Position numbers and translations under genes: made by a program. A model generated the notes under the pieces. It had not been told where the DNA came from and did no database searches. It saw only the letters and a program-made list of their open reading frames with translations. Shown in pieces: positions 212-47,935 of a DNA stretch of 64,000 nt. Source of the DNA: Xylogone sp. PMI_703 (Eukaryota > Ascomycota > Leotiomycetes). The stretch's first letter is position 1. Each line of letters starts with the position of its first letter. The stretch covers positions 5,704,001-5,768,000 of the forward strand of contig JAJTUQ010000002.1 of assembly GCA_021399445.1 (NCBI GenBank). Direction: 5' to 3'.

Positions 212-3200
212 TTTTATAATTAAATTTTCGTAGAGCTCTAGGGAAGAAGATCGTCAGGATATATATGAGCACAATTAAATTTTCTTTTCTTGTTTAATTA
301 CCAAAAAAATACGATTTTATTTGCTAGTAGATTATTTATAGAAGTATGGGTTTCGTTTAGGCGGCTGTGCATGGGGGCTGAGCTTCAACAGCAGGACTTC
401 GGATCACTAATACCATAATCTGTTCACCGTTTTGTATTTACTCTGGTGAAACATCATCAATCTAATTAAACTTCCTTCGGGCATTCATGCTAGTGATACC
501 GAAATGTTTATTTTGTAAAATCGGTTGCACCTTAAGATTAAGATGAGATAACGTAGAGACTAAGAATAAAGGTTATACATAAAATAATAAATTTTCGGGC
601 TGTAAGTTACTAAGTGTTAGACGGAAGGAGGGGGAGGCTAGACAAAGCAATTGCAATAGGATTATAGAAATTCTGATTTTTACGTTTTAAAGAAGAGTAT
701 TAAATGCCTAACATTAATCTTGAAGTTTAAAGGGTTATTAAACTTATGATGAAATTATCATCTTTGCTCGTCTGGGTCAACGTTACTTGTACTGCGAGGA
801 TGCAGAACCCGAATTGGCGGTTTACCCCACTACTGCCAGTAGTCCCTATTTACTTTGTACAGCCATTCTAACATCCCATCACTCCTTCTTTCTTCTTCTT
901 TCTTATCTTGCCATAGCCTATGCGTTCCTATAAGCCGCATCACAAATAATATATTCGGATATCTTGTGGGACGTCAATAAAACAAAGATGTGTAGTACGT
1001 GGCATTCATCGAATGGTGGGAAGCATCTCTTCAATTCTGTAGAGCTTCCGCAATTGTCTCGGTGCATAAAATAGTGTGTCACCTCGTGGCTGGGATAGGG
1101 AGTTCCTAGTGGTCATGGCCGAGGCATGTTACGATAGTTTTCAAATTCGGGGTTGACTGAAACTGCGACAGATCCGCGTGTAATTGCATCTCAAACATGC
1201 TCTTTGTATCACTTTGAAGCGGCGTTGGGCTGGAGGGACTTAGCCTGTAAAAGCTTGTCTTGTGTATCTGTCCTTTTGCCGCCACAATTGGGGAGGATTG
1301 GTTGCTTATGGATAAGTTCCTGCAACAAGTCACAAGGCTCCGCAAGCGCCGAGTCTTAAGATTATCACGTAGCTGTGTGGAAACAACCTCTTTGGACACT
1401 GTCAAGCTGTGTGTATTTATCAGCGACCTATGCTTGAGGCCATTTGGCCGTCCAGTGTTGTGGGTCTGCTATACTTGACCCTTCCTTTGGCCGGACCTTG
1501 TAGGCAATCTGCCTTGCCTTTTACAAGGCTAATAACACTAACCAAGGAACGGCGAATGAGTCTTCTCAGCTTTGCGGCTTCGAGAAGGCTATGCTCCTTT
1601 CCTAGAAACAACTGGTCTATTTGGTAACTAATCTCCAATCCGTACAACCATTACTAGGCAGCCAAAAGAATATCCTTTTCTACCTTCGTAAATAGTTGGT
1701 CCATATTTATAATCTGGTGTGTTTCTTCCCTTATTGCATCATCTACCTTCTAAGTTGAACATTAGCTCTATTCCTCTTATCTCTTTTTAGTTGCGAGTTT
1801 ACAAGAGTTATAATAGAATAACTCACAGTTATTATTCTAAGGTCTTCACCTAAAAAGTAAATCAACGTACACTACACCTGGGAGATAATGTCGAAGAGCA
1901 GAAATGAAACAAAGAATGTTCGGAAATTGAGGTAATAACTTCTTCCATAATCCAGTCATATAAGATCAATGAGACAGCATAAATGATAAATCTCTGTTGC
2001 ATAGACCAGCGAGTCGTACTTCTGTGACTACTCCCGTAAGCAAATCGTTCTAATCGATTGTTCGAACAATTAGACGTCAACCACCAGCAAATCCTCGCGT
2101 GAACTGGTCCAACCAGGAAAACAGTGCTTTACCTGACCTGGTATCTAGACTGAAGTTTACGACGTACCACGTGCTATATGTCATAAACAACGATACCTGG
2201 GATAATACATCTTTGAGCTTACTAGAAAAATTCAGAATTACAATATTTTGGGATCACCCTGGAGATTCCACAATGATATTGCTATCAACAAATAACAAAA
2301 GTCAAAGTAGTATTATAAGGACACACTTGAATACGTGTCAGATCTAGAACAACAAATATATTAACTACATAGATAACAGGAAGAAAATTAGACAGACAAA
2401 TCTGTTCAATAAGGAAATAACACAAGATAATAATTCTGCAGACAAAGACTATAATATAGAGATTCCTTTTTTCCAAAAGCTAATTTGGAAAACATAGTTT
2501 ATATAAAACTTCGACAAAATTAGACATATATACTTGTTTTCTGGAACTGCTATAACTTTACTATCCGCCTTACTTATATTATTACATTACTATCTTTGGA
2601 TATGATCAGATTTCTCAAAAACCTTATGATTTTACTCAGTTTAGCTTACTACAAGGAAATTGGCTGGTATTCTACAGTAGATAAAGTGTGCTTAAGTTGA
2701 TAGTCAGCAGTTATACTCGCTAGTATTGCTGTTATGCCGTTGTTAGTAATAGCTGGCATTTGTGTTTTTATAGTTGGATAGTCTGTAGGATTTTTTGGAT
2801 TATTCACGTTATATTCAAAGGAAAGGACAAAGTATCAGTTTATGATCAAACTAGAAGAACGTTTCTTCAAGCTCAAGTTGTTTCATAATTAGATAACTTA
2901 ATATGATGTCATGTCTTTTCTTATCTTATATCGTAACTAAGACGTTTTATTTGTTTATTTAGTAATCTTTAACATTCAGCTAGATTAATCCGTTGATTTT
3001 GGATTTTGTAATTATGATAAGTTGTCGGTCTTTTCATTTATTATAGTCTTCGTATATCGTTTTTAATTATAGTTAAGGTAACAAAGTGTTCTCTTATAGC
3101 TTTTTACTATGGTAACTTCACATAAATGAAATGTTACTTATCACCTGAGTCATCTGAATTACAATAATATTATACTATAAAACAATTTCCTAAATGTATA

Positions 3201-3547
3201 TTATTAAAATCCGTCTTTTTTTCCTTATAACTACTATCATCAATGTCGTTATTGTTATATATATGTTCTAGCCTATTTATTTATTATTGACTTCACTTTT
3301 CTTCTTCTTTTAGGATTCTTATTGATCTTAGTATATATTTGCTTTTTTAAATATTATATACTGATTCAGATTAACTTATTACTTATATGACCATTAATTA
3401 ATTATAATTACTTCTTTCTAAACTTTAAAAATATAAATAGAGTATATTGTTTAATATTAGTGGTTCAGGTTTAGGCTTTCTCCAGGAAGATATTCTTAAT
3501 AACATTCTTACTAAGGTTTCCCCTTTTATATTATTTTATTTAGTATA
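212..3547. other. Gene-free stretch, increasingly AT-rich to the right
   Basis: I found no gene I can support here. Up to about 2.3 kb the base composition is ordinary and the open frames are short and unlike any family I know. From about 2.35 kb the sequence becomes strongly AT-rich with dense stops in all frames. This matches the composition of the RIP-affected element that follows, so it is probably older mutated repeat DNA into which that element inserted. No terminal repeat was identified in it. Confidence 0.6.
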
Positions 3548-3552
3548 CCTTT

Positions 3553-3786
3553 TGTTAAGGGATAAGCATCCCGGGGTAGTCAACAGCGAATCACAGGCAA
3601 GACAAAAGGTATACACAGGTGTCTCTCATACATTCCACAGACTAAATCTTGTCCCTTACATCATTAAGCTTAAACTCTACTTTATACTATACAATAATCA
3701 CATGAATATCCTAGGCAAGGTCCTTTCGCTGGGGCTGTATTCCCCCCTGGTGAGCATAATACCTCCTTTATACCTAACCTTTAACA
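3553..3786 (-). repeat. 3' LTR of the Gypsy element
   Basis: This 234 bp direct repeat has its partner at 12061-12294. It begins TGTTAAGG and ends CCTTTAACA, giving short terminal inverted repeats. Compared by eye with its partner it shows about 30 differences, all transitions and no indels. In about 25 of them this copy carries A or T where the partner carries G or C, so this copy took most of the mutations. The outer flank is CCTTT (3548-3552), half of the target-site duplication. Confidence 0.93.
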
Positions 3787-3801
3787 TTTATCCCCCCTCC
3801 C
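3787..3801 (-). other. Polypurine tract of the Gypsy element
   Basis: On the minus strand this reads GGGAGGGGGGATAAA and ends exactly at the first base of the 3' LTR. A purine run in this position primes plus-strand DNA synthesis in LTR retroelements. It independently supports the minus-strand orientation of the element. Confidence 0.8.
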
Positions 3802-5595
3802 TAAGACTCTTATCCTCAAAAGCCAGACATAAAAACTTCATATTCAATTCCTTTGTATAACATATAGTTCTATGATATAACACTGCAGAAGTAATACATA
3901 TAAACTTCAACTAATAACCTTTATCCTTCTTTCTCTGATGAAATTCTAGCCACAACGTCCTTTTATGTCTTCTGGTTGTCCTACAAGGACCAGGCCACTA
4001 ATACGTTAATAACATACAGCTTAACCATTACCCTTTGTTCTTATACATAAAGGTAAACTTCCTTCACATATACTAAGACAATAGATTTCTTGATTTAGAC
4101 AATAACCTTATAGCACAATATACACTTTGTTATTATTCTAGATCAACAGATTAAAAAATTCAATAATTACTTTTCGTGATCTGGCTAACCTTAATAATTC
4201 ACTAATTATACATACCAAATCACTGGCTACTTAACTTGCCTATAAATACTTCTGATTCTTTCTTTTTTCTCCTTTTTCCACTTTGTCCTTAATATCTTTA
4301 CTTATAACAAAAATAAATATTCCCCCTTCTTTTTATAATCTCCCCCTTACTTTTCTATAATATTAAATACTATATTTATTCCTTTTCGAGTTATTTCTCT
4401 TACTTCTTTTTCGAATTATCAATAATCTGGTAAATTTTTACTTTTCATTTCTTCTTTGAACTACTATCGAACTTTCCTGACTTTCTTTGCCTGGTTTAAC
4501 TTTAATTCTAAGACTTTTCATCCTATGGATATTTCTCCTTTTTCAGCTTTAACTTTACGTTAATATGTCAGTAATATAATAATTATCTTTTTTACTTTAA
4601 GAGATCTTGGGCTAGTCACTGTTCCCCTTTTGTACCCATATTGTCTCAAATGTACCAAACATTTAGCTAAAACTCCTAGCCTAATTTGTAAAAAGATCAT
4701 TAAGTCTACTAAATATAAAGCCTGTACCACAAAACACAAAGACTATCCCTGTATCCTTAGAAAGTTTTATGTATATATAAATACATTAATAACCTTCTCT
4801 GATCATACTACTTGTTACCTTCGTCTTTAACCTGAGTTAAATATAAAGTAAACTTCTTTTACCAAGTATGTAGAATTGTTTATTAAGTATTATACTTAAT
4901 ATAATATTTAAGTATAAACTTTAAAAGATATTACAATTATCAAACACTCCTTGGATAAACTTATTCGTTCTATTAAGACTTTTATTAATATATATTATAT
5001 GATTATAAGTTTATTTGTCCTATGTATCCCTTTCTCTTAGTTAATATTCATAGAACTAAATAAATGATGATGATCTCTGGTTATTCTCCGAGGATAATAA
5101 TAATGAAGATGACCAAGTCTCTGTTCTTAAATATTGTTATACCAAGACTATATTAACTCCTCACGATAGATCTTCTTCTTCTTCTGTTCTGGATCCTTTG
5201 ATTATTGTTGTAAGTACGACTTTTACTAATCTTATGAGTACTCCTGCTAACACAGCAGGAGGCCCTGTCACCTCCAGTATACCCTCTGCTGTGTCTACGT
5301 CCAGTGCCTCCTCTCCTCTCCTGGGAGGTGATAACGACTCTGATCCTCTTGCTAATAGCTGGGGTTTCGCTAAGTCTTCGCTAGGTTTTTTACTAGGTTT
5401 TATCATAGTTCTATGCTAAGTCTTCTTGTTATGAGTTTTTGTAAGCTTTGTCTAAATAAATCTTATACATTTTCGCCCCCTTTTCGCTGGTGTTCTTGTG
5501 ACTTGTATAGATTTATTCTTTTTTTCCTTTAGTACCTTTTCATACTCTTGTTTATACTTCTTGAGTTCTTCTTGCATATGACACAGATAACTTAC

Positions 5596-5646
5596 TGATT
5601 CCTAAGTATCTTCTTCTGGTGAATATCCTTTTCATTTTACCAGGTA
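5596..5646 (-). pseudogene. Chromodomain remnant of the Gypsy polyprotein
   Basis: One minus-strand frame reads YLVK*KGYSPEEDT*ES. This matches the chromodomain consensus in which both stop positions are Trp. The codons are TGA and TAG, each one G-to-A step from TGG. In chromoviruses this domain follows the integrase and directs insertion to particular chromatin. Its place near the 3' end of the element fits that layout. The rest of the integrase to the right is too mutated to outline by eye. Confidence 0.85.
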
Positions 5647-6969
5647 AAACCTCCCTTTCTTTGTATCTTTATAGATTAATATAGATTTTATTTTATATTC
5701 TTCATCTTTATCAATGATTTCCTCTTTCGGAAACTCTAGTATGACACTAAGTCATATATAATATAATTCCAAGAATAATATATAAAATACTAGGTATACT
5801 TTTATGTTTGAGAATATCTTCACTTTATATACTAATTTATTACTTATTATTTTAGTGATTTCTAACAATCCTAAATACTTATCTAATAACTTCTTGTTTA
5901 ATCTTCATTGTCACAAGTTCTTCATGAATATTATAACTTACTGACTTACTTTGAATATTATAAGTTTTCGTTTTTTGTCATAATACTTTTTCTGTGTCTC
6001 AGTAACGTTATACCATTATTCTATCATTACCTTCTTTTCTTTTTTTAGTATTTTTATTCTTTCATGTACAACTACTACTTTCCCCTTTAAAATATTATCC
6101 TTGATGTCAAACTGGATTTATGGGTCAAACCCATAAAGAGCCTTGAACAAGATTAATTATATTAAACTATAAATATTATTATTATATATGAACTCTATAA
6201 GTATTAACTTCAAGGCCTAATTATCTTATTTGTACGAACAAAATACCCAGAGATAATGTTCTAAAGTCTGGTTTTATACTTCTGTTTATCTGTCAGTTTA
6301 CAAGTGAAATGCCATCAAGAGCTATCTTTGTATTTATAAATAAAAGTATACAAAAGCCCAGAATTTGTTAGTAAACTGTAGTCCCTTATCAGAGATTATA
6401 TTTTCTAGTATTCCAAAATCCTTAATAATATACTAAATAAATAAGTCTACTAGTTAAGGAGCTATAATCATTTTCCAACATAATATATATTGTATTATTT
6501 TCAAGTACTTATTGATAATAACATAATATATATCATAAACATTATTATTTTACTTACTAAAGGGTAAATTTATGATAAAATCTATAATAATTTCTTTTTA
6601 TAGTACTGTAAGTTGTAAGAAGGATATTAATATTTTATATAATATATAATACCTCATCTTCGTTCTTTAGTATATAATATAAGTATAAATCTAAGACTTT
6701 ATATCTTTGTTAATACTTGTCCAGAAGTACTTCCTCTAGATCAACTATAATGTTTTATTGAATTCTAAATATTTTATTATTAAAGCATTATAATATATAA
6801 TCATTATTTCTGCCTTAATAACCTTATTATCAAGAATATAAATCTTTCCTCTGTATCTGAGAAGACTAATCTAATCTATTCTCCAAAGTTACTCTTTACT
6901 TTTAACTTATCATTATTCTTGGCTTATTATTTCTTTAATTATTTATTTGTCTAAGTCTTGGTTTTTGGT

Positions 6970-7200
6970 CTTATTGTAGAAGCGATAGTGTGAGCGTAAC
7001 AATAACGCTGGCTAGAGCATACAGGAATAGAGCTTATGCGACGGGATCACGCAGAACCATATAAACAACAAGTACACAAGGCAAACGAACGAACCACTCC
7101 CTTGGTTGAGTATGAAAAGGTTGTTGGTTTACTATCCGGGGCTTGCCATCAATATATGCTGGCTCGGCTTGGCATAACTATTACTAATACATGACGGGTT
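6970..7200. repeat. Non-AT-rich island inside the dead Gypsy element
   Basis: About 200 bp with ordinary base composition interrupts the very AT-rich coding part of the element. It is likely a later insertion such as a short transposon or another solo LTR. I looked for TG...CA ends with a flanking duplication and found only ambiguous possibilities (for example TTAT near 6971-6974 and 7212-7215), so the boundaries are approximate and the class is unknown. Confidence 0.45.
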
Positions 7201-8914
7201 TCCCTACCACATTATCCGAAGTCTTTACCTCATTATTCATAATCTTTACGTTAGATTTTTTGAAGTTCTTCTCCTTACCCTTTCTTGTAACGTTTTGGTC
7301 CTCAAGGATTAATTTACCCTGAGGCTTACTTTATTTATAATATCTCAAATCTCTCTTGATAACTTTAGTAGTGTTTTTCTTTCTTTAGATAAGTTTTTAT
7401 CGTTGACCTTGTACAAAAACATCTTTTTGTTAAAACTCACAAATTAGATTAGTTATTAAGTTTGTTGATATACTATATACTATTTCAAGTACTCTGACTA
7501 GACAGATCTATGTTTGTAAGATAAGGTGTTTATAACTATTAATTTTAACGACAAGCTTAAACTTTCCCTAAGCTATATTATACTTAGTTACAGTTTTAGT
7601 GTTTTATATAGCCTGATCTACACTTACTTATATATATACTAGCCCTGGTTTATACCCAGACCCAGAGTATTTATCTCCTTAGTATTTCGCCACTTCCTCA
7701 CTGTTATAACTTTATGTAATAATAAGAGTAAAGTCTTCTTGAACTTCTCTGCTTGTCAGCCTTTTCTCGGCTTCATCGTCACCTCATTAAGTCAACTCTA
7801 ACTTATAACCCTTCTAAATCTAGCCCTCATAACCCTTCTCTCAAGTTTCTCTACTCGTCAGCTTTTCTTGGCCATCATAATCATTTTTTTGGGTTAACTT
7901 CAGTATATAACATTTTTGTGCTTAGTCATTACTCAACTATTCACTTTCATTATTCTAAACATTACTCCTTGGACTCAGGTTCAGTATCCTCATGTTGTCC
8001 TCAGGTCTTAACATTTCTTCGATCTTGATATATAAAACTTTTTTCAGTTTTTCTCTCAAATTTAACATTAAATCCTTAATTACTTTATTTACTTTTAACT
8101 TGTAGTTTGAGCACTTTAATAGTACATTAACAAGATTACTCTTTCCTGACCAGTGTTTAATCTTAAAGTCATATTCAGTTAATTTCTGAATTTATTATAC
8201 TTATCTTTTATTAAATTTCTCTTTATCCATAAAGTACTTTAAGTTATTATAATCAATTTTGATTATAACTGTCACAGAGGTATAAACTAAGTAGTATTTT
8301 TATTACTTTAATATAATTACAATAACTAACATCTCCTAGTTAAATATCTTATATACTTATTGTACAAAGTCTAACTTCTTCGAATAAAATATAACAAAGT
8401 ATTATCAGGACTGTTTTTCTTTTTTAACTAACTAGGATAACACTCTTCTTATAACATAGTTAAATATATCAGTCTCCAGTATGACTAGTCACTTTAGTAC
8501 ATAATATGTTAATATAAGTATTGTCATGAACACTTTCTTGAGCTCCTCGAACATACCTTTTGCCTTCTCATCAAATTTGAGTAGCCCTGTTTTCTTTCTC
8601 TTTTTCATACCCTTCAGGAGATTGGTTAAAGGTACAGTAATCTTTGAATAATTCTGAATAAATTTTTGGTAAAAGTTTGTAAATTCTAAAAATACCTAAA
8701 TGTCTTTATACAATATCAAGGTTAACTAATCTATGATTATAATTATATAATTCTTCTTTATTAACACATTATCTGGAGAGATAATATATCCTAAAAATTT
8801 AACTTGTTAGACATAAAACTTATATTTAACCAGATTAATATATAGATTATATTGTTATAATTGTTCAAAGACTTGTTATATATGTTGTACATATATCTCT
8901 TTATCTTTTAATAA

Positions 8915-8944
8915 GATCAGGATATTGTTAAAGTAAATGATGTA
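8915..8944 (-). pseudogene. Reverse transcriptase catalytic motif, inactivated
   Basis: The minus strand reads YIIYFNNILI, corresponding to the Gypsy reverse transcriptase motif (Y/F)xDDILI. Both catalytic aspartates are encoded as asparagine (AAC, AAT), that is GAC/GAT with G-to-A changes. This motif lies downstream, on the minus strand, of the fragment at 9140-9256, as it should. Confidence 0.85.
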
Positions 8945-9139
8945 TATTTTATTTATTAAGCTTATTAATACTTTATTAATATATTATTAAAATATTGTTA
9001 ATATGTTACATAAACCAAAAGGTATTATATAGTATTTATAATAACTATACCTAGTCCGGAAAATTATTTTTTACTTATTGTCTGGGCAAATGTAAATATA
9101 ATGATATATATTTTTTAGGTTAAGCTTTGTATAGATTTT

Positions 9140-9256
9140 GGCTCTTCTTAATATGTTTAACGTCTCGGAGATCAAGGGTAATAATATTTTATTCTTGATA
9201 ATAATCTTGTTTAATCTTCAGTAATTGACACAAAGTTATAATTTTCCGTCTTTCTT
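9140..9256 (-). pseudogene. Reverse transcriptase palm fragment, inactivated
   Basis: Read on the minus strand, the frame gives KKDGKL*LCVNY*RLNKI and continues with LLPLISETLNILRRA and then AKIYTKLNLKNIYH. These match the Gypsy reverse transcriptase blocks KKDGxLRLCVDYRxLN, PLPLI.E.LD.L and ARxFTKLDLRNAYH. The first catalytic Asp (KLDL) is Asn here and former Arg codons are stops. All visible changes are C:G to T:A. Confidence 0.88.
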
Positions 9257-9399
9257 CAGGGCGAACATCATTAATATTCTCGTTAAATTAAAGAATTACT
9301 TAATTTATCTTTTTTTTAATATATTATAAAAGTATTCCCTTAAGACTTCTATTTCCTTTTTAGTCAGTAAGTATACCAGTTTCTATGACAACATCTTAC

Positions 9400-9753
9400 T
9401 GTTACGAACCTAAGTCTCTTCTCAGGTCCTATAGGGTATATAGGTATATACTAGGGTCGTAAAGGGGTTGGTGAGAGCTCGGGGATCAGTGCAATACAGT
9501 ATATGATCGTAACTACAATTGTATGGGTAACAATCTGTATTGTAAGTTGAGCACGAGGCTCCTATCTAAGTAACTATCTGGTTTATATAGACTATGAATT
9601 ACCTTGGATCATCTGGATCCTTTGGATCATCGCAATGATCCCAATGATCCCAATGATCCATGTCACGTGACCTTAGTCCCTACGTCAGGTTCTCTGTGCA
9701 GTGTTTCACCTGCCGAGCCTCAGGCCTTCAGTAGTCCTAGCTGGTTCGTGACA
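9400..9753. mobile_element. Solo LTR nested in the Gypsy element, 354 bp
   Basis: The segment starts TGTTACGAACC and ends GGTTCGTGACA, so the ends form a near-perfect 11 bp inverted repeat. It is flanked on both sides by CTTAC (9395-9399 and 9754-9758), a 5 bp target duplication. The interior lacks coding potential and has ordinary base composition, unlike the AT-rich surroundings. It contains a cluster of GGATC/GATCC-type units around 9606-9660. This is the expected product of LTR-LTR recombination of a second, unrelated LTR element that inserted after the host element existed. Confidence 0.92.
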
Positions 9754-11345
9754 CTTACTTTCTTTGAGTTTAATCATATGTTACAATCCGTCAAAGCTTA
9801 ATACTTTACTTACTTTCTCTTCGTTAAATATATTTATAAACTCTTGGTAATCAAGAATTATATAATTTATTCAATGTCTTAATACTTTTATACATTTTAC
9901 ATAAGTAGTTCTTATTCACTTTTGCTGTCTTTCCCCTGTTACTTCGATAATATTTTGATTAAGTAATATCACTTCCCTTTCTCTGTCTTTGGTAAATTAA
10001 AAGAAGGCTCTATATAAAGGGGTGTCTTTCTCCTTCTTTAGTATTTGGGCAAACTTAGATATTAAGTATATTATATACTTTTCCATCTTTAAGTAATATT
10101 ATTATACCTTTTTGTATTATCCAATCAATGAGTCTACACTGATAAGCCATAAGTATCTTAGTATAAGATTATATTCATCTGTTATGATGTTAATAAACCA
10201 ATACCTTGACAGCCTAGTTTCTCTTTTGTTGTTCATCACTTTCGTAAAAAAAGTATATGCCTTGTACACATAAATCTTTGTGTTATTAATTAAGTAGAGG
10301 CCTAGGAGTTTTATACCATCATTTTCTTATTTATATTCTTACATAAGAAATAATAAGATAATATTTTTTTGTACTTCATTATTAATTAATATTATATTTA
10401 TTTTTTATTTCCTCTCTTTATCTTAGATCTAGATTAGTATTTTTATACATAAACACTTTAACTTATTTACTTTAACGAAGAAGATTTACCTTGTTTTCTC
10501 CTCATTGTTTTTGAGTATAATTAACATAAGTTAAGTACTTAGAACTTGTCACAAGACTTTATGTCTTTTTGTAGTCTAGTCCAGAAAAGTTAAAGTAATT
10601 AAGTCTTCTGGATATTACTGTTTCCCTGGCCTATAAGTATCATTACTTTTGCCCCTTTGTTGTCTTGGTTTAAATATAATATTAAATAATACTTTGTTTA
10701 TTTACAAAAATAACATTAAATGTTTAGTCTAATCATTGTATTATTATTGTTCTTATTTCAATAATCTTTTATATAATAACTTGGTTTTTCATATTTATAG
10801 CAAATAATAACTTTTCATGATTTGAGTAATATAAAGTTCATTGTTATTATTAATGTTGCCCTGTTCTAGTCAGATTTTGGCTTATAAGAGATTTTGGTCA
10901 CTTGTTTAAAAGAATTATTTTGTTACTTCTTCTTATATTCTTAGCTTTTCTGATTATATATTAATATTAAACTATTTTTACTTTGGGACAATTTATTTTT
11001 TTAGTTTTTGTCATTAAGCTTAATTCATTTTATTATTATTATTAACTTATTATATATAATTAAAAGTTAATTATATCTTATAACTTTCTCCCTCAGCTTT
11101 GAGGTCAGTTTTACGAGGAAAATCTTTATTCTAACCTCGTTGCCCAGGTCTAAGAACTAAACTTTGATAATATTTAAGTATTCCACGAAGAAATGTACAG
11201 ATTAAGTCTTCTTCATTTATGTCTCGTCATATTATACTCAAAGCTTGATCTTTCTGTTATCTTTATTCCTTAAGGATATTAACAAAAGTCTTTTGAATAC
11301 TTCTTATGATCATGTCTCCTTGCCTTTAATGTCCTTTGCTTACTG

Positions 11346-12017
11346 TCATCTTGCCCTCAGCTTGTTGTAGAATAATAACACTGTATAAAGTATCTTGTCC
11401 TTATCATTATCCTCGTAAAACTCTAGAAATGTTTTGAACTCGAAGTCATAAACGTGCAAGAAGTCATTAAACTGTTTAATCGTTTTCTTCTTGTATGGTT
11501 CAGGCCTTGAAGGGCATACATATTTTACGTTCTTGACAATAGTCATAATAGTTTATTACTGGTCCGTACTTTGTACACTGCCATATCGCTGGGGTTCTGC
11601 CTCTGGTGACCTGCTTGAGGTTCTGTCGTTCACTTCCCGCGTCACTAAGAGCGTCTTATTATATTAGTATAACTTTTCTCTCTTTTGCGTCAATTCCTCA
11701 ATCTGTCTGTCCAATTCCTCAATTTCATGTTACTCCTCATCTTTCTGCTCGTTGTATCTCTCCAGCTCCTCCGTTTCTCGTCGTAATACCTTTATGATAT
11801 ACCTTCTTATGTCTAACACATCTCGTGCCTTTGTCGTGTCGCTAGGGTTAGCCTCTGAGGGTACTTTACTAATGACCGTTATTGTGGCTTTCTGTATCGT
11901 TATCGCTGGCGTTATTCTACGAGTGTCCGTCTCTCTTACTATATGTACGGCACTGACTCGCTGTCTCCTCGAGGACTCGACGCCGTCAGTCGTGTTTCCT
12001 GAGTAACTGGTCACCAT
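11346..12017 (-). pseudogene. Gag-like remnant of the Gypsy element
   Basis: Two minus-strand open stretches lie just inside the 5' LTR. One (12017-11730) starts MVTSYSGNTTDGVESSRR and is charged with a Glu/Arg-rich end. The other (11546-11346) is rich in Lys, Asp and Phe. Their position right after the 5' LTR and their charged, low-complexity composition fit Gag. They are not in one frame and no zinc knuckle was seen, so this is a positional call. Confidence 0.55.
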
Positions 12018-14914: not shown

Positions 14915-15978
14915 ATGTCAGCAAATGTGGCAACGTCGACTGCTGCAGGCACCTTGTTCGGTGCGGCCCTCGCGGCTTCAGGGGTGTATTCGCCCGAGGT
15001 CATCATCGCGCAGATGCGATTGCGAAACTTCCATATGTTAGAAGTCTTTCTCAGCGCCAGTGCGACCAGCGCGTATGTCTTGTCACTCAATTGCCACTGT
15101 TGGTTCTCTAATGCTAACAAATTTTGTCTAGTTTGATTATCATCATTTTCGACCGTCTTGGTCTCTCCAAAACTACACCTCGAAATGCTTCATCTCTTGG
15201 CTGGTTCGGCAAGTATGATGGCAATATACTGGGAGGGCTATTGATCGGTGCTGGAATGAGTCTTTCGGGAGCATGTCCTGGGACATCGCTCGTTCAAGCC
15301 ATGACTGGTGTCCCAACTGGTTCGCTCGTCATGGCTGGTGGAACACTTGGGGGACTCTTCTATGTCCAGATTTCCAAATATCTCCGCCGCAACAACCCTC
15401 CTTCGGATCCTGAGATTGTACGTACAATATATGAGAAGTTTCACCTGAGTAAGAGCTCCGGTGTTCTTCTCTATGAATCAGTATGCCTCGCAGCGATATC
15501 AACAGTGATGTCTCTCAGGCAAAGTCGACCTATTCTTTACCACTCGGCGCTTGGTGGTCTTCTCATTGGTGGCGCACAAGCCGCGTCCCTGCTTCTCACA
15601 GGTAATCTTGTTGGAGTGTCCAGTGCATATGAAGAATTTGCGCGCTACTTCTGGGAAGGTATAGCATATATACGCGGAGGAAGGTCTGGTGGCGAGAAGC
15701 CTACCTCCATAAGATCGATCGCTTTCGCTGCTGGGATTTTAGCTGGAAGCTTTGCTGTTGCTTCTTCTTTCCCACAGTTAATAACTAAGAGCAACTTCCA
15801 GGTATCAGCAACTCGAGCTATCGCAGGAGGTTTCTCAATGGTCCTTGGTGCGAGGATTGCTGGAGGATGCACCTCTGGACATGGAATCAGCGGTATGTCT
15901 ATGCTTTCGGTATCCAGTATAATCAGTGTTGCTTCTATGTTTGCAGGTGGTATTGGATTGGCTGCATTTCTCTACTAG
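14915..15978 (+). CDS. YeeE/YedE-family (sulfur transport) membrane protein
   Basis: Two exons, 14915-15072 and 15132-15978, join in frame to 334 residues. The 59 bp intron has GTATGT, a TGCTAAC branch point and CTAG. The protein is strongly hydrophobic with two internal repeats. Each carries a signature: GAGMSLSGACPGTSLVQ near residue 100 and GARIAGGCTSGHGISG near residue 297. The conserved cysteines in CPG and GGCTSGHG are those of bacterial YeeE/YedE proteins, which import thiosulfate or related reduced sulfur compounds. The domain is plasma-membrane type; cellular location in the fungus is not shown. A persulfide-dioxygenase-like gene lies 5.6 kb away at 21557, and in bacteria such genes share operons. 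The family is bacterial in origin, so old horizontal transfer is plausible. The specific substrate is inference. Confidence 0.88.
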
Positions 15979-21556: not shown

Positions 21557-22477
21557 TTAAATGAGACTCTTCAAATCACTTGTCATCTTCAAAGGCACCT
21601 TCAAGAAAATATCCCCGTTTGAACTTTTTACCGGCAATCTCCCGCCGCGGATATTGAACTGCAGAGCCTGATGTAACAACCTTGGTTCTCCCAAGGTGGC
21701 ATCCCTTTCGCTACGCCACTTCACGAATTCACCTTCTGATGTACCGAGCTTCACATGTTTGTTCTCCTTCCTATGCTGCTCCACCGTTGCATAGGGCTGG
21801 TACTTCTCTTCTCCAGGACCTACTTCTCTAGTTGAGGGAGGATAATCGTGTCCCGTGTACAACCGATAGTGCGGTGGTAGAGAGAGCAAGGTCGTGATAG
21901 ATTTGTACAGCTCGGTGGCTGATCCATTAGGAAAATCACAACGCGCGGATCCGACATCCGGGTTGAATATGGAGTCTCCCGTGAAGACGTTCTCGCCGAT
22001 GAGGTAACCTACGTGGTCTGGTGTATGTCCTGGAAGGTGCAACACCTTGGCCTTGAGGTTGCCGATGGTAAAAGCTTCATTATCTTCGAAAAGATGATTA
22101 AATACGTTCGCAAGTTGTGTCTGATCAATGCCGTATTTAGCGGCAAAGGTAGATTGCACTTGGGTGATCCGTTTACCAATGCCGATAGCTGGAAGAGGAT
22201 TCCCTTTCTGAAAAAGTCGTTTCTGAATGTATTTTGCCGCAGTGAGATGGTCTGCATGTGCATGAGTCTCGAGAATATATTTGACGTTCAAATTGTGGTC
22301 TTCTACTAGCGAGAGAAGTGTGTCTGCCGACTCTGTGCTGATGAGGTTCTTTGCAGGGTCGAAATCGAGCACGGAGTCTATAATCACGGCATCCCTTGTA
22401 TCTGGGTCTGAGACAATGTATTGCCAAGTTCCAGTGACTGGCTCAAAAGAAGTGTATATGACAGGTGTTTTCTCCAT
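21557..22477 (-). CDS. Persulfide dioxygenase-like metallo-beta-lactamase-fold hydrolase
   Basis: Without introns, 306 residues from the ATG at 22477 (MEKTPVIYTSFEPVTGTW). An upstream in-frame ATG at 22573 would add 32 residues, but it lies only about 15 bp from a TATATATA-like stretch near 22590, so transcription would probably start downstream of it; the family also normally begins near the chosen start. Metal ligands are intact: THAHADHL near residue 73, LPGHTPDHVGY near 149, FTGDSIF and YTGHDYPP near 207. Together with SxxxADxLL and the RCDFPNGSA segment these indicate the ETHE1/BLH group, which oxidises glutathione persulfide to sulfite using Fe(II). With the YeeE-like transporter at 14915 it makes a plausible reduced-sulfur uptake and detoxification pair. 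No clear mitochondrial presequence is seen from this start. Confidence 0.87.
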   Translation of the reverse strand: MEKTPVIYTSFEPVTGTWQYIVSDPDTRDAVIIDSVLDFDPAKNLISTESADTLLSLVEDHNLNVKYILETHAHADHLTAAKYIQKRLFQKGNPLPAIGIGKRITQVQSTFAAKYGIDQTQLANVFNHLFEDNEAFTIGNLKAKVLHLPGHTPDHVGYLIGENVFTGDSIFNPDVGSARCDFPNGSATELYKSITTLLSLPPHYRLYTGHDYPPSTREVGPGEEKYQPYATVEQHRKENKHVKLGTSEGEFVKWRSERDATLGEPRLLHQALQFNIRGGRLPVKSSNGDIFLKVPLKMTSDLKSLI

Positions 22478-22573
22478 GATTTTTGTGAAATGAATATAAT
22501 AACAGTGGGATAAAACTCTGGTATTGTGGCCTCTCAAGTCTTTTACTGTGTATGTTTGGCGGGAGCTAAACAA

Positions 22574-31633: not shown

Positions 31634-32662
31634 CTAAGGCACAAAGCCACATCCGTACCGCGCCTCGTTCAGGACCATCTCGAGTATCTCTCCCATTGCA
31701 ATGTATCCGCCATATACTGTGATTAACACAGCAATATGCCACAGATTATGGCTTGAACCAAGGAAGTCAAACCGGCCGGGCCAGATAGACTCAGGAAATT
31801 TGCTTCCATATACCATCGCACCAGTAAAGATAGGTACCACCATCCTCAGGACCAGCGGTCGGTAGAACGCCGTTGCCCACTCCAAATTTTGCATCCAGGC
31901 AAGATGAATGAAGGGTATCAACCCGGTAACCCCTAGAAGGACGAATAGCGTGACACGAATCCATGCGAATTCGGGATTGCGTAGGATTGGCTGCCAGACT
32001 GCCACCAAGCAGGAGATGGTGCATATAGTGGTGAAACCTATGTAGATAGACTGCAATACAGGATTGCAATAAAACGCAGCGTACTGGGTTAAGACGCCAG
32101 TGACAGATATCATTACCGATACGCCCATCAAGTCGACCGACGCACAGCTCCGGAGGAGATCTGGGTACGCAATAGATTTCATCGTATGCCAGAAGACGCT
32201 ACAACCAAAACAGATCGTGGCAGCGAACAGGTAGCTTGCTATGATGGCCTTGTCCAGTACTGAGTGGGAAATATCAGACTCAGACAATCTTAAAGCAAAA
32301 AGTCGTGCGCAGACGAGCCCGAGAATATGAGACCAGACATTGAAAGACTCGTTGGAGAGCCGGAAAACACCGACACAGCATTGCCAGATGGATGTATTGA
32401 AGTGGTATCCAGAACGGATGTACGAGTTGATTCGCCATGGGTCAGGCAGATCCTCGAAATGGATCAGAGCTCCCCCAGTGCCTTTGGCAATGGCATGCTT
32501 GATTTGGGCCGCAAGAGAATTTTCAGGTATACCTTCAAAAGGTAAGCCTTTGTCTATTGTTTCATTTATATCTCTTTTGCTGGAAGTGGCATAATTACCC
32601 AAATGCTGGCAGTCTGATTTTTCGGGTGTTTCAACCTGAGTTTGAGTTTGAGTTTGAAGCAT
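31634..32662 (-). CDS. PAQR / hemolysin III-family membrane protein
   Basis: An intronless frame of 342 residues with a soluble N-terminus of about 85 residues (starting with a TQ-repeat encoded by a GAGTTT microsatellite), followed by seven or so membrane segments. PAQR hallmarks are present: SNESFNVWSHILG, then CSVFWHTM, DLMGVSVMIS and near the C-terminus SSHNLWHIAVL. The His of WHT, the Asp and the two His of HNLWH are the metal ligands of this family. Fungal members (Izh type) and the related alkaline ceramidases act on or respond to membrane lipids. Substrate is not deducible. It lies between a PGS1-like and a TLC-domain gene. A TACTGTAATA element occurs 254 bp upstream, as upstream of the PGS1-like gene. 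Confidence 0.88.
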   Translation of the reverse strand: MLQTQTQTQVETPEKSDCQHLGNYATSSKRDINETIDKGLPFEGIPENSLAAQIKHAIAKGTGGALIHFEDLPDPWRINSYIRSGYHFNTSIWQCCVGVFRLSNESFNVWSHILGLVCARLFALRLSESDISHSVLDKAIIASYLFAATICFGCSVFWHTMKSIAYPDLLRSCASVDLMGVSVMISVTGVLTQYAAFYCNPVLQSIYIGFTTICTISCLVAVWQPILRNPEFAWIRVTLFVLLGVTGLIPFIHLAWMQNLEWATAFYRPLVLRMVVPIFTGAMVYGSKFPESIWPGRFDFLGSSHNLWHIAVLITVYGGYIAMGEILEMVLNEARYGCGFVP

Positions 32663-33603: not shown

Positions 33604-34548
33604 CTAGCTAGTCTTTCCTCTCAAAAGTTTCCGGTATACCGATCTCGCAATCATATAGAACCACATGAAATTCAGCGCCTGTAGGAGCGTTCCCGAGAAT
33701 GCATACATTGCCAGAAGCCACAGGGGCATTCTCTCCTCGCCGACGGGAATTTGATCATTAGTTGCGGTGAAGGCCGTCCAGATATCCCGGCAAAACCATC
33801 CTGTCAGGTATGTACCCCAGATGATGCGACTGAGAAAGAAGGAGATGAATAGGGCCACGCCGTTCATGACTTGCATCCTCGTTCCTTCCATGCGCAGCTT
33901 GAGCATACAGCGATGAATGTTGAGAAAAATGTTGGAGAATTCGTAGAGGTAGGAGGCGGGCGCGTAGGTCATGAATGCAGGCCGCTAGGGAGAGTTAAAT
34001 AGAAGATATCAGCAACAAATTTACATGTAATCATGTATTCGAGATGAGATGAACTGTTTCGCACTTACAAACCCACATATCATCAATGAAGATGTGGCCA
34101 CACCGTGCGCAACCATTGACCAGCCGTATATCTTCCAGTATCGCACCATCATGATCAGATGCCAGGTGAAGTATCCATTGGCAATGGCAAGCACCTTAGC
34201 AGTCGGTTCAGTGTATCCCCATACCCTCTCCTGCCAGTTCATCCGTTTCCTCTCATCATCAAAGAGGACGACTTGAAGGGCCAGATAGAAATTGAGAAGA
34301 GCTTGGGTGAAGGACACAACATCTATATCCCAGTCGAGCTTCTCTTTTCCTTTGAAGTGAGCGTAGCTTTTGGGGAAGAAGCGCGCAGATATCCCCGGTC
34401 CAATGTGGATGTAAAATAGCTGATATGCGAGAAAAGTAAGGAGGAATTGAAGTAGGTATGGCGGTAGGAGGGGGAGATGAATTCGGTCGCAAGCCGACTG
34501 GATGTATGCGTAAGTTTCAGGATAAAGCTGAGCAATGAGATTGTCCAT
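33604..34548 (-). CDS. TLC-domain (TRAM-LAG1-CLN8) membrane protein
   Basis: Two exons, 34548-34069 and 33984-33604, join in frame to 286 residues; the 84 bp intron has GTAAGT and CCCTAG. Several hydrophobic segments are visible. TLC features: a soluble loop with KSYAHFKGKEKLDWDIDVVS, a second half with GYFTWHLIMMVRYWKIYG, MVAHGVATSS and, across the intron, RPAFMTYAPASYLYEFSNIF followed by NIH. This pattern belongs to the TLCD/TMEM56 branch rather than to canonical ceramide synthases, which carry a HHxxDH motif not seen here. The domain occurs in ER proteins handling ceramide or phospholipid. It shares the region 34549-35736 with the divergently transcribed MFS gene. Confidence 0.85.
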
Positions 34549-46306: not shown

Positions 46307-47935
46307 ATGGTTCCTAGAACTATATCCGCCAAGATGGACGAATCGAACGATTTACGCTCATTGAGGTTATCTACTTCCATATTTCCTCTATTTCTAACCA
46401 TATTCATGGTTTATTACCTTATCGAGAGGAATGTGATCCGTTATCTATCCCAGAATTACCCAACCATCTATGATAGACTGAAGAAAAGAGAGCAGCTTGC
46501 AGGATATGTCGCCTTCATCATGGGCATGCTAGTCACTCTTCTCTCAACACCTGCTTGTACAGTTGCCTGGCTGGGTTCTATGAATACCAACGATAAGCCT
46601 GGTTCACCGTTTTACTCAACGGCCGGTAACATTTGTATTGCTTCGAAATCGCTACTCTGGACGGCAGAGCTTAACAGACTAAACTTTGCGACTGTTTATG
46701 TACTACACCACGTATTCTCTCTGATGTCGTTACTTCATCACTTGTATTTTGACATACAACTGGGGCCGCTCTATGCCATCTACGCTTCTCTGGTCACGGA
46801 ATTACTCTCAGATTTCATTGCCATCCTAGGGTATCACCGATTGAATTTCGCAACATCCAGATTAGCATATGTTACCGAACTGTCAAACTTTGTAGCCTTG
46901 ATGTTTATCCGCATCTCTGCCGCAGTTTATGCCGCCACTACGATAAGGGATTTCTCATCGAAGAGTATAGTGTTTTGGACAAATGCGTTCTCGATCTCGT
47001 TTTATATCTGGGTTCTGCTGTCGAGGATATGGACGAAGTCACGAATATTGATGATAGTTCAAGTTATTGAAAACAAGGTCGTTGTTGCCCAAAGATTTAC
47101 TATTACTCTCTATGGGATATTCTTCAGCCTCTCTTCGCTATTGACGGCTGCTGCTGCTCTGATTATCACACTGAACGATCCATCCTCCACTCTAAGTCCA
47201 TTAGCTGTCTCGTTAGTTGCACGAACCGCATTCTACACGGCAATTATATCATTAATTGGATCGCGCATACCAGGGACTATATATTATCATGGACCACTAG
47301 CACTATTATCATCTCGTCTGATCACTGCACACTCAGGCTTTAGTCTACAGGGGGCGATGTTGGCAGGTGCTCTCTTCATCTGCTTCCCGAAAAAAGGAAT
47401 TACTTTTGATCAGAGGCTCGATATTCTTTCATCAGTAGCCGTAGCGTCTCTACTGGGAGAAGCTGTTGGAAGAATTGGCTGCCATTTTGGGGCTTGCTGT
47501 GGCTCCAGTTACGAAAGGAAGTCACAAGACAAGGGACAGCTGGTAAAACAGTCAGATAAACGGTCTATACCACTCTATGTAACGATGATCACTATACCAT
47601 GCTGGGTAGCTATTCTTGTGCTATATACCAGTGGGACACTATCTCTCCGTGTGACTGGTGCCCTCGCATTGGGGACACAGAGCCTCGTTCGAATACATGC
47701 GTCGCAATATCGAAATGACGTCGCTCTATACATGCAGGTTCTAGCATATGCACAACTTCTCCTAAGCGCTGCTATGTTGATTAAGTCTAGCAATTATAAG
47801 ATGCCTCCTCACCATGGCGAGTACCCCAAGTCAGACTATTACTTTGCGGTTCAGACTCTGGCAAGTGAGCCTTGGATCTGGGGATTGACAGTGATACTTA
47901 TCATTTCGGGAACAGTCACCAAATACGGCACCTAA
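46307..47935 (+). CDS. TLC-like / Lgt-like fusion membrane protein, 542 aa
   Basis: An intronless frame of 542 codons with ten or more hydrophobic segments; Met10 (46334) is an alternative start. Residues about 20-245 resemble a TLC domain (KKREQLAGYVAFIMG, ATVYVLHHVFSLMS, LYAIYASLVTELLSD). Residues about 270-540 resemble bacterial prolipoprotein diacylglyceryl transferase (PF01790): SLQGAMLAGAL at about 346-356, the signature GRIGCHFGACCGSSY at 388-402, and a C-terminal LVRIHASQYRND...YAQLL block around 460-485 that parallels the R...R.D...Q..S pattern of Lgt. Arg389 matches the essential Arg of the GRxG motif; the His of the HGG motif is Gln348 here, 41 residues earlier, close to the family spacing. 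Lgt transfers diacylglyceryl from phosphatidylglycerol. Activity is therefore uncertain, but a lipid-binding or acyl-glyceryl transfer role in an internal membrane is reasonable. I know of no characterised eukaryotic protein of this make-up. Confidence 0.75.
   Translation: MVPRTISAKMDESNDLRSLRLSTSIFPLFLTIFMVYYLIERNVIRYLSQNYPTIYDRLKKREQLAGYVAFIMGMLVTLLSTPACTVAWLGSMNTNDKPGSPFYSTAGNICIASKSLLWTAELNRLNFATVYVLHHVFSLMSLLHHLYFDIQLGPLYAIYASLVTELLSDFIAILGYHRLNFATSRLAYVTELSNFVALMFIRISAAVYAATTIRDFSSKSIVFWTNAFSISFYIWVLLSRIWTKSRILMIVQVIENKVVVAQRFTITLYGIFFSLSSLLTAAAALIITLNDPSSTLSPLAVSLVARTAFYTAIISLIGSRIPGTIYYHGPLALLSSRLITAHSGFSLQGAMLAGALFICFPKKGITFDQRLDILSSVAVASLLGEAVGRIGCHFGACCGSSYERKSQDKGQLVKQSDKRSIPLYVTMITIPCWVAILVLYTSGTLSLRVTGALALGTQSLVRIHASQYRNDVALYMQVLAYAQLLLSAAMLIKSSNYKMPPHHGEYPKSDYYFAVQTLASEPWIWGLTVILIISGTVTKYGT

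Follow-up and report, generated by a model that had tools for sequence, protein, structure and literature searches.

A TLC-like seven-helix half fused to an Lgt-fold half of cysteine-type signature in a fungal membrane protein

Lgt is an enzyme of bacterial lipoprotein synthesis, and in its accessible sections PMC8689077 treats bacterial lipoproteins and their enzymes as restricted to bacteria and as antibiotic targets. An open reading frame in the ascomycete Xylogone sp. PMI_703, predicted from its letters to fuse a TLC-like half to an Lgt-like half, raises the question of whether this fold occurs in a fungal protein and, if so, what it might do there. We find that the locus is an intact fungal gene whose product is a polytopic membrane protein, with a TLC-like seven-helix half and an Lgt-fold half that bears a cysteine-type signature.

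The frame runs without an intron across 542 codons (46307-47935) of the window, as we term the whole 64,000-nucleotide stretch of DNA analysed. In the database the gene, P0001, is called from Met10 (46334) and yields 533 aa; with its context CCAAGATGG, this methionine looks the better start, as judged from the letters around it. The gene lies inside an 8.2-Mb contig of a 50.1-Mb genome assembled in 25 contigs, GC around it is similar to that of neighbouring DNA, and the fusion protein, searched against the genome in six frames, recovered only the gene itself and no second copy. Nearby frames show ankyrin, HET-like and zinc-cluster features when their translations are read, as would suit a filamentous ascomycete. 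Farther off in the window, an AT-rich block at 2001-12000 (27-31% GC per 2-kb step versus 40-48% elsewhere) resembles what repeat-induced point mutation presumably leaves. Two other genes, 5.6 kb apart, encode a YeeE/YedE-type sulphur-transport protein (15124-15978, + strand, PF04143) and a protein of the metallo-beta-lactamase fold that has the appearance of a persulfide dioxygenase (21557-22573, - strand).

A second and distant sequence, P0002, has the same two-half layout and is ~40% identical overall; it comes from a 3387-base contig, and a fungal host is assumed for it. Protein searches for relatives, which scored the 7996 candidates with the most words in common, returned only P0001 (the protein itself) and P0002; a further protein search missed even P0002, and such searches say little about absence. 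Viral contigs yielded no relative, and plasmids gave no match to the fungal Lgt domain at E≤0.1. The features discussed below are as follows.

46307..47935, + strand: whole fusion gene, a single open frame of 542 aa (533 aa if the start is 46334)
46379..47041, + strand: N-terminal half, residues 25-245, seven long predicted helices, TLC-like (low-confidence AF2 models and a weak TLC match)
46706..46711, + strand: His134-His135 in helix 4, putative equivalent of the ceramide-synthase catalytic HH, identical in P0002
46799..46813, + strand: Glu165-Leu-Leu-Ser168-Asp169 in helix 5, putative equivalent of CerS6 Asp239/Asp242; E165, S168 and D169 identical in P0002
47090..47782, + strand: Lgt-superfamily domain (PF01790), residues 262-492, by profile match
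47111..47113, + strand: Tyr269, aligned with E. coli Tyr26; Y269 and G270 identical in P0002
47342..47359, + strand: SLQGAM block, residues 346-351, with Gln348 replacing His103 (alignment, P0002)
47468..47503, + strand: signature GRIGCHFGACCG, residues 388-399, with Arg389 (R143), Cys392 (N146) and Cys397 (E151), by alignment
47684..47719, + strand: arm block LVRIHASQYRND, residues 460-471, with Arg462 (R239), Ser466 (E243) and Arg469 (R246), by alignment
47789..47932, + strand: C-terminal extension past the Lgt fold, residues 495-542, poorly conserved (13/47 identical in P0002)

Both halves are conserved in P0002, and the predicted fusion is thereby borne out. Of the aligned positions, 103 of 225 are identical in the N-terminal half (residues 25-251); the Lgt domain has fewer (88 of 215), and none of the 11 linker positions agree. 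Within the N-terminal half it reaches 29/45 in helices 3-4 and 16/28 in helix 5, the better-kept helices in which the HH and E/SD positions sit, as against 33/69 in helices 1-2 and 20/67 in helices 6-7. Among the stretches measured, conservation is highest in the Lgt signature (17/22, with 13/19 in the arm stretch); identity this high in a protein pair at ~40% overall is as expected of an active site.

The C-terminal half had been called Lgt-like, and profile match, fold and core residues all agree. Scanned uncut, the 542-aa protein gave no Pfam match, and the relationship appeared only when the halves were scanned apart: the C-terminal half alone then matched PF01790 at E=1.4e-15 (57.7 bits, cut-off 24.9). 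P0002 scored 40.8 bits against the same cut-off, the database already assigns PF01790 to both P0001 and P0002, and a six-frame PF01790 search of the whole genome returned the fusion gene as its sole match (E=2.2e-14). The seven-helix Lgt fold is present in the C-terminal half of the AlphaFold model, with a structural match. NCBIfam gave the fusion protein only 21.6 bits (E 1.4e-4), far under its cut-off of 334, and no PDB sequence matched the fungal protein at E≤10. We consider homology of this half to Lgt virtually certain.

Active-site positions were assigned by MAFFT alignment with E. coli Lgt, with numbering anchored on Y26, H103, R143, N146, E151 and R239. The counterparts of Y26, R143, R239 and R246 are kept in both P0001 and P0002, and six positions are changed in both: H103>Q, N146>C, N149>G, E151>C, G154>S and E243>S. 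The fusion protein carries a trio of cysteines (C392, C397 and C398) with Ser400 at the place of G154, and the canonical signature, GRLGNFINGELWG in E. coli, is not matched by the fungal domain. The column of D129 holds Ser/Ala in the MAFFT alignment, with Asp372 in the conserved Asp column of another alignment, and counting four back from Arg462 puts Gln458 at the place of Tyr235. The spacing from Gln348 to Arg389, predicted to be close to that of the family, is indeed 41, compared with 40 (143 minus 103) in E. coli. Relative to E. coli Lgt (PDB 5azb/5azc, PF01790), the fungal domain differs in being fused to a second seven-helix half in a eukaryotic host, in the H103>Q, N146>C, E151>C, G154>S and E243>S replacements, and in having no HPxQLY and a shortened head loop.

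Mutational data from E. coli, as given in the available portions of PMC4728403, put these changes in context. There R143 and R239 form the lipid pocket; mutants of R143, Y26 and E151 (including E151A/Q) are inactive; and H103A/N/Q/R/Y fail to complement. Since H196A/Q and Y201F retain activity in the same account, loss of HPxQLY would not by itself be disabling. In the mechanism proposed in the accessible part of PMC8689077, His103 serves as the base.

The cysteines of the fungal signature recur in a class of bacterial proteins that we call the cysteine type, defined by GRxGC with Cys at the place of E151 and at the residue after it. At least 118 stretches in genome contigs fitted a DNA pattern for GRxGCxxxGCCxG; among the matches listed, 118/118 have the motif in an open frame, which reaches 180 codons or more in 117, and the tree labels of the listed loci spread over many phyla. 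In an alignment of 156 distinct Lgt-like rows, 121 had C146 and C151, a number enriched by the search pattern because most were fetched by that motif, 33 had N146 and two had C146/G151. The last two, loci L157 and L159 from two genomes, represent a third Lgt-like type in which C146 is combined with Gly at 151 (GRxGCLLSGDGxYG). At the place of His103 the cysteine-type rows have Y in 86, F in 9, L in 8, Q in 6, H in 5 and other residues in the rest, so that 116 of 121 lack the histidine, compared with 3 of the 33 canonical rows (H in 30). The cysteine-type rows do keep G154 (121/121) and, for the most part, E243 (110/121). A 526-aa Knoellia frame (L020) that had been considered as a bacterial fusion was dropped, its N-terminal part reading like a non-coding frame in high-GC DNA.

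Some bacterial genomes appear to have this type as their sole Lgt. A single PF01790 match was found in 9 of 20 genomes searched, all of them chosen from cysteine-type loci. In the phylum of an Akkermansia-labelled MAG (G020), all 59 genomes drawn, for which 90% completeness was requested, had a PF01790 match and 54 had exactly one, with the proviso that MAGs among the 59 may be incomplete. We typed the best-scoring 30 of the 59 loci (L137, L139 and L191-L218): 19 were H103/N146/E151 and 11 were Y103/C146/C151, with no mixed case, the two types standing in for one another in this phylum. In each of the 11 cysteine-type genomes, of which G020 and G002 had already been recognised as carriers, it was the only PF01790 match. 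As a sole match with Tyr103, the cysteine type would, on the simplest reading, do the Lgt job without His103.

This result changes how the glutamine is to be read. The original prediction had taken Gln in place of the conserved His as a sign of altered chemistry. E. coli H103Q does not work, according to the available text of PMC4728403, which speaks for that argument; but because the GRxGC...CC class is mostly free of His103 and forms the sole match in some genomes, Gln alone is no argument for altered chemistry, and this part of the prediction is weakened. Loss of Glu243, Tyr235 and Gly154, on the other hand, does argue for a putative change in chemistry.

How closely is the fungal domain related to the cysteine type? 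The two share Cys at the places of N146 and E151 and at the next residue, and in both His103 is absent, with the few exceptions among bacteria given above. They differ in that the fungal protein has Ser400 and Ser466 at the places of G154 and E243, where the bacteria keep Gly and mostly Glu, and in that the bacterial proteins are mostly stand-alone, at ~260 aa, whereas the fungal domain is fused. An HMM built from the Lgt domains of P0001 and P0002 gave the 121 cysteine-type rows a median of 18.4 bits and a top score of 41.6 (L050, a bacterial relative that also matched 507 plasmid records), compared with a median of 4.1 and a top score of 14.3 for the 33 canonical rows. With the signature masked, the cysteine type fell to a median of 1.4 (top 19.5) and the canonical rows to 2.0 (top 12.1); E. 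coli Lgt scored 1.3, masked or not. Because the median preference vanishes once the signature is masked, the assignment to the cysteine type rests on the signature. In a 111-row tree (13 chosen and 60 random cysteine-type rows, 2 C146/G151, 33 canonical, E. coli, and the P0001/P0002 pair), the fungal pair sat on a branch of 3.32 changes per column in an open fork, and grouping the pair with the 30-row canonical clade was not rejected (p-AU 0.351).

The N-terminal half is harder to place. Two AlphaFold models contain seven long helices and a short one at 52-60, with a pLDDT of 49.3 when the half is folded alone. The excerpted text of PMC11919693 describes His211/His212 (TM4) and Asp239/Asp242 (TM5 region) of CerS6 as essential and His211 as forming an acyl-imidazole. 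In its seven long predicted helices, its helix-4 HH and the acidic residues of its helix 5, the fungal half resembles CerS6 and the TLC (TRAM/LAG1/CLN8, PF03798) proteins; E165 and D169 lie 31 and 35 residues from H134, compared with 28 and 31 from His211 for the CerS6 aspartates, a likeness noticed after the fact and carrying no significance value. It differs from TLC proteins in having no match at the Pfam level and in its fusion to an Lgt fold. Pfam gave no match to the N-terminal half alone of either P0001 or P0002 (PF03798 cut-off 24.6 bits), and the 11 matches of a PF03798 search of the fungus's own genome did not include it. BLASTP of the N-terminal halves against the TLC/Lag1 proteins tested reached a best E of 2.7. 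A profile-profile comparison with TLC gave probabilities of 0.1 to 6.4%, with two controls at 0.1%. A Foldseek search with the poor model (pLDDT 49.3) returned no match at E≤0.001, an outcome that speaks neither for nor against TLC, and no ceramide synthase in the 50 rows listed; none appeared either in the rows listed by structure searches for the Lgt fold.

Profiles built from TLC proteins, each compared with 1000 class-preserving shuffles per N-terminal half, gave a signal that depended on their make-up. The half aligned collinearly, if weakly, with three TLC proteins of its own genome over residues 13-215. A profile of those three, one of them partial (T), gave the window N-terminal half 3.9 bits, with 24/1000 shuffles as high, and that of P0002 9.8 bits, with 0/1000; it also scored both above the unrelated membrane proteins tried. 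Addition of one Lag1-type protein (TL) left 7/1000 shuffles as high for the window protein and 3/1000 for P0002; with two more (TL6) these rose to 480/1000 and 183/1000, and an unrelated MFS transporter encoded in the window outscored both halves (1.7, compared with 1.4 for P0002 and -2.7 for the fusion protein). Four Lag1-type proteins alone gave 862/1000 and 787/1000, and all seven TLC proteins together gave 988/1000 and 62/1000. Because the signal varies in this way, we do not claim TLC membership, although we judge homology to the TLC domain reasonably probable. The predicted TLC domain is plausible: it agrees with the helix count and the putative catalytic positions, and finds no Pfam match and no stable profile score. 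That the half is instead an undescribed membrane domain of seven helices, which would make the protein a fusion of the Lgt fold with a new domain, is in our view rather unlikely. The blank Pfam result, the silence of the ceramide-synthase-type profile, the rank of the transporter over both halves in the six-member profile and the absence of ceramide synthases from the 50 Foldseek rows listed for a poor model all fit such a domain. The T profile, which beats 976/1000 (window) and 1000/1000 (P0002) shuffles and the unrelated membrane proteins tried, the collinear match over 13-215, and the HH and E/SD at CerS-like places speak against it.

Two further TLC loci were noted in this genome. A two-exon TLC gene lies in the window 12 kb from the fusion gene (33604-34548, - strand; PF03798, 51 and 65 bits); it is itself without HH, as read from its sequence, and adjoins a gene for an HlyIII/PAQR-type membrane protein (31634-32662, - strand; PF03006, 146 bits). 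Elsewhere, at positions 1492-2277 of locus L129 (C19:3193958-3197365), the C-terminal part of a TLC domain is followed in one open frame by what resembles the start of a polyketide-synthase ketoacyl synthase, possibly a second TLC fusion.

Loop charges offer a view of how the two halves face the membrane. We counted them with four flanking residues, alternating helices and helix 7 cut at 245. The side that holds the positive TLC-like loops, the linker and the Lgt head has K+R/D+E of 20/7 in P0001, compared with 15/11 on the other side, and the same count gives 20/12 and 9/10 in P0002. In 38 bacterial relatives the mean net charge is +6.7 for the loops opposite the head and -1.1 for those on its own side; the corresponding values are +2 and +5 for the fusion protein and +1 and +3 for P0002. 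Because the charges are reversed relative to the bacterial relatives, they suggest that the fungal Lgt half is inverted, with its head to the cytosol, an orientation that depends on the helix count of the low-confidence N-terminal model. Both catalytic faces would then probably lie on the same, cytosolic side. Against this orientation, the positive-inside rule holds less strictly in the ER.

What might such a protein do? The phospholipid-handling core is retained in Tyr269, Arg389, Arg462 and Arg469, from which we infer lipid binding. Our preferred reading, offered tentatively, is a cytosol-facing transferase that would use a phospholipid and an acceptor other than a lipoprotein. A glycerophospholipid would be bound between Arg389 and Arg462, and the Lgt half would activate the glycerol C3-O-phosphate bond of the bound lipid. 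Diacylglyceryl transfer, or lysis, would follow; given that E243, Y235, G154 and the greater part of the head loop are gone, the acceptor would be something other than a bacterial lipobox peptide. The TLC-like half, which has kept the HH of helix 4 and the E/D of helix 5, may bind a partner lipid or acylate it from acyl-CoA. That the protein is an active phospholipid-dependent transferase or lyase is itself a possibility to which we give somewhat less than an even chance. A more elaborate version, a new kind of bifunctional lipid enzyme in which one chain couples an inverted, cytosol-facing cysteine-type Lgt that draws diacylglyceryl from a phospholipid to an acyl-CoA-fed TLC acyl-histidine site to make an undescribed fungal lipid or lipidated product, seems to us quite unlikely.

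Other explanations were weighed against the same residues. The Lgt half may be a dead pseudo-enzyme that binds or senses lipid, with the TLC-like half doing the work or the whole protein acting as a lipid regulator. The replaced residues include E243 and G154, which the cysteine type keeps in 110/121 and 121/121 rows, the fungal branch is very long at 3.32 changes per column, and the head loop is shortened, all as a lost activity would have it; both core arginines and the tyrosine are nonetheless kept, as are the cysteines of the bacterial cysteine-type signature, the signature stretch is the best conserved of those compared between P0001 and P0002, and we regard a dead enzyme as a doubtful but serious contender. 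Alternatively, a true protein-lipidating enzyme would attach diacylglyceryl to a cysteine of fungal proteins. Its cysteine-type relatives apparently are the only Lgt in some bacterial genomes and manage without His103, but loss of E243, G154, Y235 and most of the head loop, the altered charge pattern relative to bacteria and the description of bacterial lipoproteins as exclusive to bacteria in the available text of PMC8689077 make this improbable. Least credible of all is a chance resemblance or an artefact, whether the protein is a generic membrane protein, comes from contaminating bacterial DNA or is a fused prediction: the empty whole-protein Pfam scan and the poor N-terminal model are what it would produce, and it is contradicted by E=2.2e-14 genome-wide, the fold match, the same layout in P0002, a position inside an 8.2-Mb contig with GC like its neighbours, and an annotation in Fusarium.

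That annotation bears on the earlier statement that no characterised eukaryotic counterpart is known. In its available text, PMC3577648 lists FGSG_06124 of Fusarium graminearum as annotated with two domains, one transmembrane and one of the prolipoprotein diacylglyceryl transferase, mentions a second intron and gives no function; by this description it may be a counterpart of the fusion gene, and the locus name was found in no other paper of the literature searched. The accessible part of PMC2868825 reports a Perkinsus marinus EST with a BLASTX match to the enzyme (2e-23), which may be contamination. A search of the literature, covering titles, the starts of abstracts and few subscription journals, found no functional study of a eukaryotic Lgt and no paper linking a diacylglyceryl transferase with a TLC domain, likewise for fungi. 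The statement holds for functional studies, in the literature so covered; as an annotated domain, the family had already been recorded in Fusarium and matched by the Perkinsus EST.

Together, the main point, a fusion that contains an Lgt fold, stands, and the reason originally proposed for altered chemistry is its weakest part. The large bacterial Lgt class that is mostly free of His103 matters for any mechanism in which this histidine is central. A eukaryotic protein of the Lgt fold that has kept the core arginines would extend the fold to fungi and indicate which further tasks it can perform.
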